From positions 1-63,434 of the IMG/VR virus record IMGVR_UViG_3300020424_000350: a DNA stretch of 63,434 nucleotides, one strand, 5' to 3'. The position numbers and the translations under genes were made by a program. The stretch comes from a virus. The notes beneath the pieces were generated by a model. That model saw only the letters and a program-made list of their open reading frames with translations. It did not search any database and was not told where the DNA came from. Numbering within the stretch: the first letter of the stretch is position 1; the number at the start of each line of letters is the position of its first letter. This document shows, in pieces, positions 3,992 to 36,422 of the stretch.

Positions 3992-4200
3992 TGGCTAGAG
4001 CGACAGTAAACGAAGTAGATAAACGTTTAAGTGCTCATGAAGCAGCTTGTGACCAACGTTGGAAAGAAAATTATCGTAGATTAGATTCTATAGAAAATGG
4101 GATTTTATTAATTAATAAAACAATCAGGAATAGCTTAATATTTATTGTTACTATTTCCTTGACTGCTATAGGGTTTCTAGTAAGATACACTTTGTTTTAG
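3991..4200 (+). CDS. holin-like / XhlA-type membrane-anchored protein
   Basis: The preferred ATG at 3991 overlaps the upstream TAA and gives 69 residues. The first 45 residues are a polar coiled-coil-like helix (EVDKRLSAHEAACDQRW), followed by one C-terminal membrane segment (about 47-69). This order resembles XhlA or haemolysin-type lysis partners. A GTG at 3982 is possible but lacks support. The gene sits 9 bases before the endolysin and is probably a holin or lysis accessory. Confidence 0.55.
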   Translation: MARATVNEVDKRLSAHEAACDQRWKENYRRLDSIENGILLINKTIRNSLIFIVTISLTAIGFLVRYTLF

Positions 4201-4677: not shown

Positions 4678-6584
4678 TGCCCTTATTAAAATTACAATTT
4701 AAACCAGGAATCAACAGAGAAGGTACTAACTACAGTAATGAAGGCGGTTGGTTTGACGGCAACTTAATACGTTTTAACAAACAAAACGTAGAAAAAATAG
4801 GCGGTTGGAGAAAAGATAACAGTAATACTTTTTTAGGTAATTGTAGAAAATTACACGGTTGGACAGATTTAAACGGTACAAAATTTTTAGGATTAGGTAC
4901 AACTAGTAAATACTATATCGAAAAGGGTGGTTCATTTTATGACGTTACACCATTAAGGCAAACAACAGCCGCAGGTGACGTAACTTTTGCAGCAACTAAT
5001 GGCTCAAGCGTAGTCACTGTTACTGATACTAATCATGGATTAGGGGTAGGTGATTATGTAGCTTTTAGTGGTGCAACTAGTTTTGGCGGTAATATAACAG
5101 CGGCTGTAATAAATCAAACAGGAACAACATATTTAAATCAAATAGGTTTTATGGTCGCTTCTGTCGTAGACGCTAATAACTATACGATAACTGTACCAGT
5201 AACAGCTAATTCTTCTGACGCTGGTAGTAATAAAGGTGGGAGCAGTGTCATAGGGTACTATCAAATACAAGTAGGATTAGATAGTTATGTCTCAGGAACA
5301 GGTTGGGGAGCAGGAGCATGGGGAGAAAGCACTTGGGGAAGTACAAGTCCGTTAGCTTTCGCTAGTCAATTAAGATTATGGTCACATGATAATTACGGTG
5401 AAGATTTAATTATTAATCCTAGAAACGGTGGTATCTTTTTCTGGGACACTTCCGCAGGGGTAGAATGGGCTACTAATAATAATCACAATAGGGCTAAAGC
5501 GTTATCGGACCTCACAGGAGCTAATTTAGCCCCCACAGTAGGGTTATTTACCTTAGTATCTCAGGTAGATAAACACGCTATTATTTTAGGAGTAGACCCT
5601 ATTAATACAGCAGGAACAGCTAGAACAGGACAAATTGACCCAATGCTTATAGCATTTAGCGACCAAGATAATATTGTAGAGTGGGAGCCAAAATCTACTA
5701 ATACTGCAGGAGCATTAAGTTTATCTGAAGGTAGTACTATCGTAGGAGCAGTAAAGTCAAGACAAGAAATATTAGTCTGGACAGATACCTCTTTATACAG
5801 TATGCAATTTATTGGTCCACCTTTTACATTCGGTATAAATTTAATAAATAAAGAAACTGGATTAATTGGACCTAATGCTGCGATAGTAACTTCAAAAGGT
5901 GTTTTTTGGATGGCGGTAGATAATTTTTATGTTTACACAGGTACAGTACAAAAAGTTCCTTGTACAGTTTTAAGTTATGTTTTTGATGATATAAATGTTT
6001 CAGAAGTTTATAAATTTCATGCTTTTTTAAATGAAGAATTTAATGAAGTAGGCTGGTTCTATACTTCGAAAAACGGTAATGAGATTGATAGATATGTTTC
6101 TTATAACTATGACATAGGTGCATGGGCTTATGGAACATTAAGTAGAACAGCTTGGTTAGACTCGGGTACAGAACCTTACCCAAGAGCTACAAGTAGTAAT
6201 TATTTATACGAACATGAGTATGGTTACGATGACGACGGTAATCCTATGACTAATGTTTTTATAGAAAGTTCAGATATGGATTTAGATGAAGGAGAACAAT
6301 TCAGCCATATATCTAAATTAATACCTGATGTTAGATTTCTAAATAACGCGGCAGGACAAATAAATTTTGTTTTAAAAACTAGAAACTCTCCTGGAGAAAC
6401 ATTAACTACTAAAAGTACTAACGCTGTAACAAGCACTGCGGCTAAAGTAGATTTACGTTCTAGGTCAAGACAGGCAGCTTTTAGATTTGAATCAGATGAC
6501 GACGCTTCTTATCCTGGAAATACAAATACAGGTTGGCGATTAGGTAATAATAGAATAGAAATAAACCCTGACGGAAAACGTTAA
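4677..6584 (+). CDS. tail hub/nozzle-like virion protein
   Basis: The 635-residue protein starts with FKPGINREGTNYSNEGGWFDGNLIRF, the conserved opening of a marine podovirus structural protein thought to form the tail hub or stabilisation ring. The body is beta-rich with repeated WGxxxWG patterns (about 203-215) and ends with a segment resembling tail tube distal proteins. It overlaps the endolysin stop and the next structural gene start by one base each. The structural role is well supported, the precise position in the tail less so. Confidence 0.65.
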   Translation: MPLLKLQFKPGINREGTNYSNEGGWFDGNLIRFNKQNVEKIGGWRKDNSNTFLGNCRKLHGWTDLNGTKFLGLGTTSKYYIEKGGSFYDVTPLRQTTAAGDVTFAATNGSSVVTVTDTNHGLGVGDYVAFSGATSFGGNITAAVINQTGTTYLNQIGFMVASVVDANNYTITVPVTANSSDAGSNKGGSSVIGYYQIQVGLDSYVSGTGWGAGAWGESTWGSTSPLAFASQLRLWSHDNYGEDLIINPRNGGIFFWDTSAGVEWATNNNHNRAKALSDLTGANLAPTVGLFTLVSQVDKHAIILGVDPINTAGTARTGQIDPMLIAFSDQDNIVEWEPKSTNTAGALSLSEGSTIVGAVKSRQEILVWTDTSLYSMQFIGPPFTFGINLINKETGLIGPNAAIVTSKGVFWMAVDNFYVYTGTVQKVPCTVLSYVFDDINVSEVYKFHAFLNEEFNEVGWFYTSKNGNEIDRYVSYNYDIGAWAYGTLSRTAWLDSGTEPYPRATSSNYLYEHEYGYDDDGNPMTNVFIESSDMDLDEGEQFSHISKLIPDVRFLNNAAGQINFVLKTRNSPGETLTTKSTNAVTSTAAKVDLRSRSRQAAFRFESDDDASYPGNTNTGWRLGNNRIEINPDGKR

Positions 6585-11096: not shown

Positions 11097-12855
11097 CGGA
11101 ATAACTGGTCTTAGTCCTTTCCCAACTATGGGCGGTGGAAATCAAGGAGCTCCTGGAATCACTTCTGTAGAAATAACACCAACTAGAGTAAATTTTCCCA
11201 CAGCTAGAACTAGAACTCCTGCACCTGAATCTAATGAATTAACTGGTGCAGAAAAATATATTCCTGGAGTTTTAGGTATAGTAGGTTTAATAGATAATGC
11301 AGTAAATAGAAATAAATATAAAGTTACCACTGAAGGTTTTAAAAAAGAACAAGAAAGAATAAAAAAATTAAACGACGAAGGTTTAATATCTGACGAAGTA
11401 GCAGATGCTGAATTAAAAGCATACGCTATTTATGGTCCTGATAGAGATACAAGCGGAGTAGACGCTATGACTATAGCGGGTACTATAGGTACTTTATTTT
11501 CTGGTAGAACATCTGGAACATCAGCAGCTATAACTAATCAGTTTTTAAATAGAAAAAACACTGAAAACCTATCAATAAATACTAGTAAAAATCAATTTAA
11601 AAAAGAAAGTCTTAAAAAAGATTTCGGTCAAGTAAATATATTAGATTATGCAAACCTTACACAAGGACAAAAACCTAATATTACTTTAGGGATAAGTTCA
11701 GAAAATGATTTCGGCACAGACCTTTTTGTACCTACGGAAGCATTTAAAGGAGACGACCCAATATTAGAAAATGCAGTAACTATTGGTGGTAAAACTTATA
11801 TAAAAAATCCTGAAGGTTTTGTTAAATATACTGAAGGTATCGCAAGGTCTTTAGAAGCTGACGGTAGTTTTAATTTTGCTAGAAAAGACGCACTAAAAGA
11901 TTTAAGACAAAACGTTAATACTCAAAAAGAACAAGACGCTGCTACAGCCAAATTAGTAGGATTAGCAAACCCCGCATTACAAGAACTAAGAAAACAAGCC
12001 GCAGAAAATATGCCAGGAACTACTACAGTAGCTTCTTTCGCAAGTTTCGCAAATGATGTACGAGTAAACTTAAATCAAATTTTCGGTGACGGTAAGATAG
12101 AAAAGTTTTTTGAAGGAGGAGAAGGTGGGTTAGAACCAAATACTTTCGGTAAAAATGCTTCTTCAAAACGACTACTACAGGACCTTTTATCATTAGATGA
12201 AAATTCAGAAACTTATGCGGAAGATGTAAATAAAGCATTAGGTAATTTTATAGATACTGCTGATATAGATTCAAATTCTAGAAATTTCTTAAAAAATAAT
12301 GTACAACAATTAGCGATTAAAAATGCTAAAGTAGCTTCGTTATTTTTAAATATTGCTTATTATGCCGCAGGTACCGCAGGACAAACAGGTAGAACATTAT
12401 CAGATAAAGATTTAGCTAACTTTTTTAGAATTATCGGTGGTGAAGGAAGTCAAGACCCTGCAGTTAAACACGATATTTTATTAGATTTTATAAATAGAAC
12501 TATTAAAGCTAGAAACGATGAAACTGGTGGGGTATTTAGTTTAGCTGCTTTAAGTGAAAGAGACGGTATTTTTGGACCTTATGGTAATTTGAATTTAAAA
12601 AATAAAGAAACTAATGAAAAATTAGGATTATTAAGACCTTTTTACGATTGGGACCCTAATGCGGATGGCGAATACGATTATACAAAACCAAGTAGACAAA
12701 GAACTTTTTTTGAAAGAAATGCTACTGTGCCTAGTATAGTAGAATGGTTATCTAGTAATCAACAAAGATTAGGTGACGGCTTCGAAACATCTAGTGAAGA
12801 AACAGGCACTAAACTAGACACAGGAGACGACGAAAATCCTTTTGCAACCCCATGA
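11089..12855 (+). CDS. internal virion protein (core/ejection)
   Basis: This 588-residue protein has no recognised enzymatic domain. Residues 50-75 contain a short hydrophobic stretch (IPGVLGIVGLI), with a mixed alpha-helical body and an acidic C-terminus. It lies between two other large internal-protein genes and overlaps each by a few bases. Position and size resemble core or ejection proteins of podoviruses. No tape-measure repeats are visible. Confidence 0.5.
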   Translation: MANGITGLSPFPTMGGGNQGAPGITSVEITPTRVNFPTARTRTPAPESNELTGAEKYIPGVLGIVGLIDNAVNRNKYKVTTEGFKKEQERIKKLNDEGLISDEVADAELKAYAIYGPDRDTSGVDAMTIAGTIGTLFSGRTSGTSAAITNQFLNRKNTENLSINTSKNQFKKESLKKDFGQVNILDYANLTQGQKPNITLGISSENDFGTDLFVPTEAFKGDDPILENAVTIGGKTYIKNPEGFVKYTEGIARSLEADGSFNFARKDALKDLRQNVNTQKEQDAATAKLVGLANPALQELRKQAAENMPGTTTVASFASFANDVRVNLNQIFGDGKIEKFFEGGEGGLEPNTFGKNASSKRLLQDLLSLDENSETYAEDVNKALGNFIDTADIDSNSRNFLKNNVQQLAIKNAKVASLFLNIAYYAAGTAGQTGRTLSDKDLANFFRIIGGEGSQDPAVKHDILLDFINRTIKARNDETGGVFSLAALSERDGIFGPYGNLNLKNKETNEKLGLLRPFYDWDPNADGEYDYTKPSRQRTFFERNATVPSIVEWLSSNQQRLGDGFETSSEETGTKLDTGDDENPFATP

Positions 12856-33384: not shown

Positions 33385-33413
33385 TTTACTTTCCGTTAAT
33401 TCGTAAGTATAGT
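33385..33413 (+). promoter_or_regulatory. phage promoter family member P4
   Basis: tgcTTTACTtt at 33385-33390, 17 nt, then TATAGT (33408-33413). The leader has a weaker stem CGGCAC (33426-33431) with GTGTCCG (33447-33453), before the conserved TAGAAAGGAGAAA box and the 33488 gene. Confidence 0.8.
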
Positions 33414-33487: not shown

Positions 33488-33832
33488 ATGCAAACCTCTA
33501 CTTCAGTATCAAGCTCTGTAAAAAGAGCTCCTAAGAAGAAGGCAGCAGTTAGTATCCCTAAACCTACGACAGCTTCGAAAGGGGCTTCTAGGACTTTATA
33601 TAAGGTCTCAGACTTAGGTTTTAAGGATATTAAAACTCCTCAGATGAAAGCGTTAGTTAAAACCGTGAAAGAAGCTAAGAAAGATGAACTTGATTCATCT
33701 AGCTTCACAGCACAGGACTTGGTGTCCCTAGCGGTGAAGAAAAAGGAATTGTCTACTAGACAAGACCCTTTGAGAATCTTCAGGTTTTACGCTAAAAGAC
33801 TTACTGATGAGGGCTACTTCATTAAGGTGTAA
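33488..33832 (+). CDS. small basic protein, possible winged-helix regulator
   Basis: The 114-residue protein has a Ser/Lys/Ala-rich N-terminal tail (about 1-30), then a helical domain that ends in RIFRFYAKRLTDEGYFIKV. The end resembles the recognition-helix and wing of winged-helix proteins. The proteins at 43449 and 44031 have the same layout (flexible N-terminus, IW/FWxHYxxxLxxxNLV-type end). A DNA-binding regulator is a fair guess; alternatives include nucleoid or host-inhibitor proteins. Confidence 0.5.
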   Translation: MQTSTSVSSSVKRAPKKKAAVSIPKPTTASKGASRTLYKVSDLGFKDIKTPQMKALVKTVKEAKKDELDSSSFTAQDLVSLAVKKKELSTRQDPLRIFRFYAKRLTDEGYFIKV

Positions 33833-33840
33833 TGAACATT

Positions 33841-33903
33841 GGGTGGTATAGACCAGCAAGTCCCCTATACCACCCTCTCATTAACTTGGGACTTAGAAAG
33901 GAG
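33841..33903 (+). promoter_or_regulatory. pseudoknot leader before 33909 gene
   Basis: GGGTGGTATAG (33841-33851) pairs perfectly with CTATACCACCC (33865-33875), an 11-bp stem. The 3' part of the 13-nt loop, AAGTCCC (33858-33864), is exactly complementary to GGGACTT (33888-33894), seven bases that end just before the AAAGGAG ribosome binding site. Together these would form an H-type pseudoknot next to the SD. There is no T-run, so it does not look like a terminator. Confidence 0.65.
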
Positions 33904-33908
33904 AAAGC

Positions 33909-34151
33909 ATGGAACAACCAGCATATGACCCCGAGACTGAGTATCTGGAAACAGTACTGAGGTTTAAGGTGTATAGACAATATGTAGGTGCTGACGCAAG
34001 AGATGATGAGCCTTGGAGCTTGTGGATGTCTTGCTCAACTCATGAAGGGGCGAAGATTCATGTTCGTAATGATAAAAAACGAACTGATATTTTCGCGTAT
34101 AAAATAATTGACAATAAAGAGCAATCTTTTATTGTCCGTGAACAATGGTAG
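33909..34151 (+). CDS. hypothetical acidic protein
   Basis: An 80-residue protein of alternating charged and aromatic residues (YLETVLRFKVYRQYV, SLWMSC) with no recognised domain. It has a strong ribosome binding site (AAAGGAG) and follows the pseudoknot leader, so it is a candidate target of that regulation. Confidence 0.55.
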   Translation: MEQPAYDPETEYLETVLRFKVYRQYVGADARDDEPWSLWMSCSTHEGAKIHVRNDKKRTDIFAYKIIDNKEQSFIVREQW

Positions 34152-35231: not shown

Positions 35232-35251
35232 GGTTTTATATTTAATAAGTA

Positions 35252-35302
35252 GGGCTGATGGGTTGTGCACAGAAGCAGGAGAAATAGCCCCCTGCACAGT
35301 CC
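35252..35302 (+). promoter_or_regulatory. structured leader with possible pseudoknot before 35326 gene
   Basis: GGGTTGTGCA (35260-35269) pairs with TGCACAGTCC (35293-35302), ten pairs including two G-T wobbles. The loop sequence AGCCC (35286-35290) is complementary to GGGCT (35252-35256) upstream of the stem, giving a possible pseudoknot. An alternative local helix GCAGG/CCTGC lies inside the loop. The ribosome binding site follows at 35314. Confidence 0.5.
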
Positions 35303-35325
35303 TACACCACTAGAGAGGAGAAAGT

Positions 35326-36285: not shown

Positions 36286-36399
36286 TCAGACAGGGTTTTT
36301 ATTTTTTGTTTTGTCCCTGTCGACGAGAGGGAGTAAGTCTGATAGTATGCGAATCGATGTCAGTATGCGTGAACAGAGGACATACTTCTACTCCCTCTC
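36286..36399 (+). promoter_or_regulatory. switch-like leader RNA before 36423 gene
   Basis: Two strong helices are visible: GACAGGG (36289-36295) with CCCTGTC (36315-36321), and GAGAGGGAGTA (36325-36335) with TACTCCCTCTC (36389-36399), the latter an 11-bp perfect stem. TCAGAC (36286-36291), which overlaps the first helix, can instead pair with GTCTGA (36337-36342) in the second loop. Two copies of AGTATGCG (36344, 36362) compete for CATACT (36381-36386). The leader ends before the SD at about 36413. Confidence 0.6.
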
Positions 36400-36422
36400 A
36401 CCTATACTAGAAAGGAGAAAGT

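Follow-up and report, generated by a model that had tools for sequence, protein, structure and literature searches.

The Intercistronic Element and Its Setting

The window, that is, the whole stretch of DNA analyzed, is a 63-kb virus record (63,434 nucleotides) from an uncultured phage with marine relatives. Its DNA polymerase is nearest to those of 023Pt_psg01 (55%) and Pelagibacter phage HTVC023P (49%); these cultured relatives resemble it in the DNA polymerase only, and the ribosome-binding box described below is absent from the 25 kb examined of each. The structured element considered here is intercistronic, lying between two small genes on the plus strand (Table 1), and its first helix (S1) starts 8 nt past the upstream stop codon, a TAA at 33830-33832. 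An earlier note on this DNA had wrongly given the structure a promoter on its 5' side and a ribosome-binding site on its 3' side. In a consensus scan, the sole plus-strand promoter-like site in the scanned region upstream stands before the preceding gene, and none was found between 33413 and 33841, directly upstream of the element. Promoter-like sites of the form CTTTACTTT-17-TATAAT are found at window positions 33385, 35203, 36224, and 37690 and at many loci, and in several relatives an inverted repeat, CTTTACTTT...AAAGTAAAG, extends over both promoter hexamers and is a possible operator.

Table 1. Features of the intercistronic region and its surroundings (window coordinates).
Feature	Coordinates	Strand	Remarks
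Promoter-like site, TTTACT-17-TATAGT	33385..33413	+	Consensus scan; in front of preceding gene
Upstream cistron, 114 aa	33488..33832	+	Lys-rich disordered N-terminus and three-helix, winged-helix-like C-terminal domain (modest-confidence model)
Overlapping 42-codon frame	33832..33960	+	Predicted only; begins at TAATG (shares upstream stop), spans whole hairpin into ORF 33909
S1 5' arm, GGGTGGTATAG	33841..33851	+	Coordinate check, gap shuffles
L1, ACCAGC	33852..33857	+	Crosses S2; invariant in seven contigs
S2 5' arm, AAGTCCC	33858..33864	+	Adjoins S1 3' arm, with room for coaxial stacking
S1 3' arm, CTATACCACCC	33865..33875	+	No U-run after
L3, TCTCATTAACTT	33876..33887	+	Crosses S1; first 5 nt can alternatively pair with UGGGA (33887-33891)
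S2 3' arm, GGGACTT	33888..33894	+	GGGGCTT in L004 and L005, pairing kept
Ribosome-binding box, AGAAAGGAGAAA	33895..33906	+	AAGGAG at 33898-33903; box recurs in the phage group
Downstream cistron, 80-aa orphan	33909..34151	+	Model: one helix and four-stranded sheet

The product of the upstream gene is predicted, at modest confidence, to be a basic, winged-helix-like protein, and its Foldseek matches were not significant. For the 80-aa product downstream, Pfam, PHROG, and fold searches returned no recognizable RNA-binding, nucleic-acid-binding, or ligand-related fold. The 42-codon frame that overlaps the gap is preceded by an SD-like AAGG upstream of its ATG at 33832 and is open in all relatives carrying the element, although in L006 the contig end cuts it. 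Stop-codon read-through and frameshifting were rejected, with an in-frame TGA directly after the TAA and a TAG at 33849 in the +1 frame.

Architecture, Chance, and Predicted Folds

Every coordinate that the earlier note gave for an 11-bp perfect stem was verified, as was its exact match between the end of the loop and the segment just 5' of the Shine-Dalgarno (SD) sequence. S1 consists of 11 Watson-Crick pairs closing a 13-nt loop, ACCAGCAAGTCCC, the last seven bases of which can form seven further Watson-Crick pairs (S2) with the segment before the SD. The layout is that of an H-type pseudoknot with sterically possible loops and, because loops L1, L2, and L3 measure 6, 0, and 12 nt, S1 and S2 are able to stack end to end. 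On the 3' side of S2 the sequence reads AGAAAGGAGAAAGC-ATG, with AAGGAG 3 nt after the end of S2.

The combination had been called unlikely by chance, and shuffling bears this out. An 11-bp stem was reached in 12 of 20,000 shuffles of the 62-nt gap itself and, given S1, a 7-bp S2 anywhere arose in 0.45% of loop/downstream shuffles (P = 0.0045), a test run on a case already selected by the earlier note. S2 in its exact geometry, joining the loop end to the segment at the ribosome-binding box, arose in 0.055% of shuffles (P = 0.00055), the geometry having been picked after the element was seen. No 11-bp stem with a nearby 7-nt loop match occurred in 60 dinucleotide-shuffled windows, and under a simple stacking model the focal pseudoknot scored best of 101 leaders in the phage group, with none of 40 shuffles equaling it.

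The predicted energies are -18.1 kcal/mol for the S1 hairpin and -9.6 kcal/mol for the S2 duplex. In the pseudoknot-free ensemble the 3' arm of S2 is predicted to pair locally instead (UCUCA/UGGGA), S2 being predicted much stronger than this UCUC/GGGA alternative. The SD lies outside both S1 and S2, and the pseudoknot-free ensemble pairs it only in part; as modeled, it is firmly sequestered in neither predicted fold. With the gene start included, the region has a modest MFE z-score (-1.44).

Loop-to-pre-SD pairing was significant only in the focal leader among 16 leaders of the group tested, with a nominal P of 0.004 that becomes about 0.06 after correction, and a family-wide pseudoknot class at the box is accordingly rejected (1/16 leaders significant). 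A family-wide scan giving 31 versus 1.5 SD-adjacent pseudoknots was set aside as inflated by relatedness, overlapping hits, and promoter palindromes. One further candidate, L114:2651-2720, has an 11-bp stem and a loop TAGTTT matching AAACTA before the same box (a 6-bp S2), and was not counted (P = 0.20 alone, relatives invariant).

Close Copies of the Element

The same stem-loop occurs in six further contigs, identical over 35 nt, making seven near-identical contigs in total, in all of which the element precedes the one orphan gene. Four-fold sites of the neighboring genes diverge by about 12% among the seven. Within the stem-loop there are no changes, and within the 76-nt gap there are three polymorphic sites: 33879 in L3, 33891 in S2 (A to G, turning a U-A pair into U-G), and 33908 outside the structure. 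No pair is broken; S1 is invariant and S2 carries the single U-A to U-G change, which is too little variation for covariation. The low variation of the gap relative to the four-fold sites indicates constraint. Two of the three polymorphisms (33879 and 33891) are also synonymous in the 42-codon frame.

Searches by stem-loop, by the S1 3' arm with the pre-SD segment, and by protein recovered the same contigs only, with no more distant copies; the focal loop did not recur on other stems in the DNA searched, and Rfam 15 gave no match, either at gathering thresholds or at E<=5.

Positional Homologues After the Upstream Gene

Of the two flanking genes the upstream one is the better conserved, with homologues in 14 further distinct loci, the divergent ones at 51-68% identity. 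Hairpins were scored after the stop codon of these genes as significant against shuffles (P<=0.04) and starting within 20 nt of the stop. Such a hairpin follows the same stop in 12/14 divergent relatives, or 13/15 with the focal lineage, as compared with 53 of 200 other post-gene gaps (26%); the Fisher P is about 5e-6 or less, for 15 positional homologues that are related to one another and not fully independent. The significant hairpins start +7 to +17 nt from the stop and have stems of 7-15 bp. In L020, which did not score as significant, a long loop is closed by a 10-bp stem (GTGAGACTGT/ACAGTCTCAC).

The sequences of these hairpins are mostly unrelated between loci, and the downstream genes differ. 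Where stems are comparable (L036/L022, L090/L021, and L028/L031), all seven changed pairs are still paired, two of them having changed on both sides, and G-U changes are tolerated. A U-run follows the hairpin in L022, L023, L028, and L041, and is lacking at the other loci including the focal one. S2 is absent from the positional homologues, the loop-to-leader helix being found in the focal sublineage only. TAATG is likewise present in few of them, most reading TAATTT, TAATTA, TAAACT, or similar. Applied to these positional homologues, the covariation check that the earlier note had proposed for both helices supports S1-type hairpins and not S2.

The recurrence of the hairpin in position, together with the pair-preserving changes, identifies S1 as an example of a hairpin conserved in position and acting at the RNA level, and S1 is very probably a functional RNA hairpin. 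Hairpins of this type go with the 3' side of the upstream gene no less than with the next gene's leader.

Recurring Signals and Other Structured RNAs of the Phage Group

A promoter of the form CTTTACTTT...TATAAT and a ribosome-binding box, AGAAAGGAGAAAG, recur many times per genome, and a hairpin often precedes the box. The leader hairpins preceding the box of the DUF932-like gene likewise change in sequence and keep their stem, so that the placement of hairpins beside the box is a habit of the group.

Several further structured RNAs were observed. One, at window 35246-35307 and in L004, L152, L153, and L154, has an invariant core, GATGGGTTGTRYACAGAA(N)GCAGGAGAAATAGCCCCCTGCA, enclosed by an outer stem that varies in sequence and remains complementary in four contexts (GTAGG/CCTAC; AAGGT/ACCTT; GATGATAGTAGG/CCTACTATCATC; GGTGGTAGTAAA/TTTACTGCCACC). 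Its loop AGCCC can pair with an upstream GGGUU, forming a candidate pseudoknot. It has no Rfam match, is absent from the genome contigs searched, and is possibly more interesting than the focal element. A second RNA, ATAAGGTTAGCGGAAAAGTGGATAGCTATTAAAG...AAATCC...(variable hairpin)...GAACAACGCCTTAT, spans roughly 80-150 nt and recurs in L090, L096, L102, L138, L141, and L152, placed after the post-stop hairpin or after a GATGGGTTGT element, and had no Rfam match in the loci scanned. The loop motif AAAAnCCTAGATTnAATTCGGGG is carried on different stems in the L132 leader at 11753 (-), in L153 at about 430-480, in the L039 gap at 4198, and in L096 at about 17100 (-); in one case this hairpin is the post-stop hairpin of a 33488-type gene. 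Long leaders sharing GAATTAGGGATARG...CCATACCCGAACTA occur in L107 before 17107 and in L022 at about 6080-6230, with differing outer stems (GTGATTAG/CTAATCAC versus GTGTGGTTAG/CTAGCCACAC). Lastly, the leader at window 36300-36405, before ORF 36423, has relatives in L009, L064, and L068 with compensatory stem changes (GACAGGG/CCCTGTC versus GACAGGC/GCCTGTC; GAGAGGGAGTA/TACTCCCTCTC versus GAGGGGAGGT/ACCTCCCCTC).

Comparison With Known Systems

Very few regulatory pseudoknots have been documented in phage mRNAs, and a 2010 review considered that of T4 gene 32 perhaps the only viral pseudoknot in translational autoregulation (PMC3014915). In T4 the pseudoknot is positioned 67 nt ahead of the start, with AU-rich repeats, coated by gp32, on its 3' side (PMC3014915). 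The gene 32 leaders of T4, T2, and RB69 resemble the focal element in being H-type pseudoknots with adjoining stems, located in phage mRNA 5' of the ribosome-binding site. They differ in that the focal S2 ends 3 nt before AAGGAG with no AU-rich unstructured repeats between, and in that the focal 80-aa product has no Pfam, PHROG, or fold match to a cooperative single-stranded nucleic-acid-binding protein. The T4 pseudoknot is, by analogy, the closest functional counterpart, with these two of its defining features lacking at the focal site.

In organization, the closest analogue is the PeSLs of T4-like phages, cassettes of early promoter plus stem-loop between small genes (PMC4503421), minus the promoter. 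Both comprise stem-loops with sequence turnover in gaps between small, variable phage genes (PMC4503421), whereas the focal gap has no promoter and part of its structure pairs with the flank of the ribosome-binding site. A role in mediating recombination is unsupported for the focal gap.

Intrinsic terminators and 3' stabilizing hairpins of bacterial and phage operons share with the element a strong hairpin placed a few nucleotides behind a stop codon and, in several positional homologues, a U-run; at the focal site the U-run is missing, and the hairpin loop is able to form a second helix with the next leader. Among riboswitches, preQ1-I/II and SAM-II are small classes built on an H-type pseudoknot, compact and next to the SD. 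The focal element differs from these in having its SD in no helix, no aptamer conserved across gene families, and no Rfam match, and the alternative folds hiding or exposing the SD that characterize translational riboswitches were not found at the focal site.

A Proposed Boundary Element With a Probable Pseudoknot

The preferred reading takes the stem, its conserved position, the pair-preserving changes, the pairing potential of S2, and the open SD, all observed by computation, as features of an intercistronic RNA boundary or stability element; for this mechanism as a whole the chances seem about even. S1 would be the local version of a hairpin kept by the phage group right after the stop of 33488-type genes, conserved in structure and place while its sequence turns over. 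In a polycistronic mRNA such a hairpin may keep exonucleases off the upstream message at its 3' end and, were the RNA cut at the gap, provide a folded 5' flank for the downstream message; in the relatives with a U-run, the same hairpin probably terminates part of transcription. In the focal sublineage the loop would also pair with the segment just before the next ribosome-binding site, giving a probable H-type pseudoknot that stacks against, not over, the SD, so that the site stays open. We infer a nuclease-related or processing role and constitutive rather than regulated action. That the pseudoknot forms in the cell is somewhat favored over its not forming. Counting against this reading are the confinement of S2 to one sublineage, its borderline P after correction, the modest MFE z-score, the incomplete independence of the positional homologues, and a conservation of the loop, L1 included, that exceeds the need of a pure stability hairpin.

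The H-type pseudoknot proposed in the earlier note was borne out insofar as it is sterically and energetically plausible and its S2 is found in 7/7 contigs; the further step to riboswitches and autoregulatory operators is unsupported, the SD lying outside both helices. The same applies to the suggestion of a ligand or protein controlling the 33909 gene, for which neither an Rfam match nor a suitable fold in the product was found. Hairpins of unrelated sequence at the same spot in relatives favor an ordinary boundary element of the RNA over a switch that senses a ligand. Should the element be regulated, a protein would be the likeliest agent, restarting ribosomes the next, and a ligand the least likely. 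The likelihoods attached to the alternatives below are not mutually exclusive, and the first of them overlaps with the boundary model.

It is conceivable, though doubtful, that S1 is real and the 7-nt S2 match coincidental, the pre-SD segment pairing weakly with the UCUC beside S1. The absence of loop-to-pre-SD pairing from every other leader of the family, the lack of S2 in positional homologues, and a pseudoknot-free ensemble that already pairs GGGA with UCUC would fit such a coincidence; they must be set against the rarity of S2 among shuffles given S1, and more so in the focal geometry, its retention in all seven contigs with a sole change that keeps pairing, and a predicted strength far above that of the local alternative.

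Translational control, in which a phage protein, or ribosomes that restart at TAATG, would open or lock a pseudoknot docked at an exposed ribosome-binding site and so couple the cistrons, is unlikely; on that account the second helix would have been added in evolution to a pre-existing post-stop hairpin. Slightly less likely still is an operator bound by the 33909 product, or by some other protein of phage or host, with the result that the neighboring ribosome-binding site is blocked in the manner of T4 gp32 on its own leader. The pseudoknot does adjoin the box AGAAAGGAG, L1 is invariant beyond the needs of pairing, T4 provides a precedent (PMC3014915), and the upstream product is predicted to be basic and winged-helix-like. 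The 80-aa product nevertheless has neither a nucleic-acid-binding signature nor a significant fold match, no AU-rich spreading sequence leads from the pseudoknot to the SD, and same-place hairpins of unrelated sequence before different genes are a poor fit to a conserved operator for a conserved protein.

A translation-sensing switch seems improbable. Ribosomes ending at the TAA would restart at TAATG and read 42 codons through S1 and S2, unfolding them and tuning access to the 33909 start. The TAATG overlap and the open frame are present wherever the element is complete, two of three polymorphisms are synonymous in that frame, and an SD-like AAGG precedes its ATG. However, few positional homologues have TAATG, open frames of 42 codons are not unusual, the changes, three in all, are too small a sample, and the frame overlaps the 33909 start and would occlude it. 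Just as improbable is a DNA-level inverted repeat (an operator) or intrinsic terminator in place of an RNA structure: while S1 is a perfect 11-bp palindrome and some positional homologues are terminator-like, a U-run is missing from both strands at the focal hairpin, which also has no neighboring promoter, no terminator-like site was called there (the tail reads TCTCATTAACTT), stems differ wholly between relatives despite a well-conserved upstream protein, and G-U changes are tolerated in them. A metabolite-binding riboswitch, suggested by a compact H-type pseudoknot beside the SD as in the small riboswitch classes, is highly improbable for an element without an Rfam match that precedes one gene without assigned function in seven near-identical contigs and leaves the SD outside both helices.

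A hairpin with a lasting place and pairing and a replaced sequence represents an RNA boundary kept between fast-evolving small phage genes, and the pseudoknot shows how a post-stop hairpin could become a regulator. Its several further structured RNAs lacking an Rfam match make this phage group a good place to look for new RNA elements.
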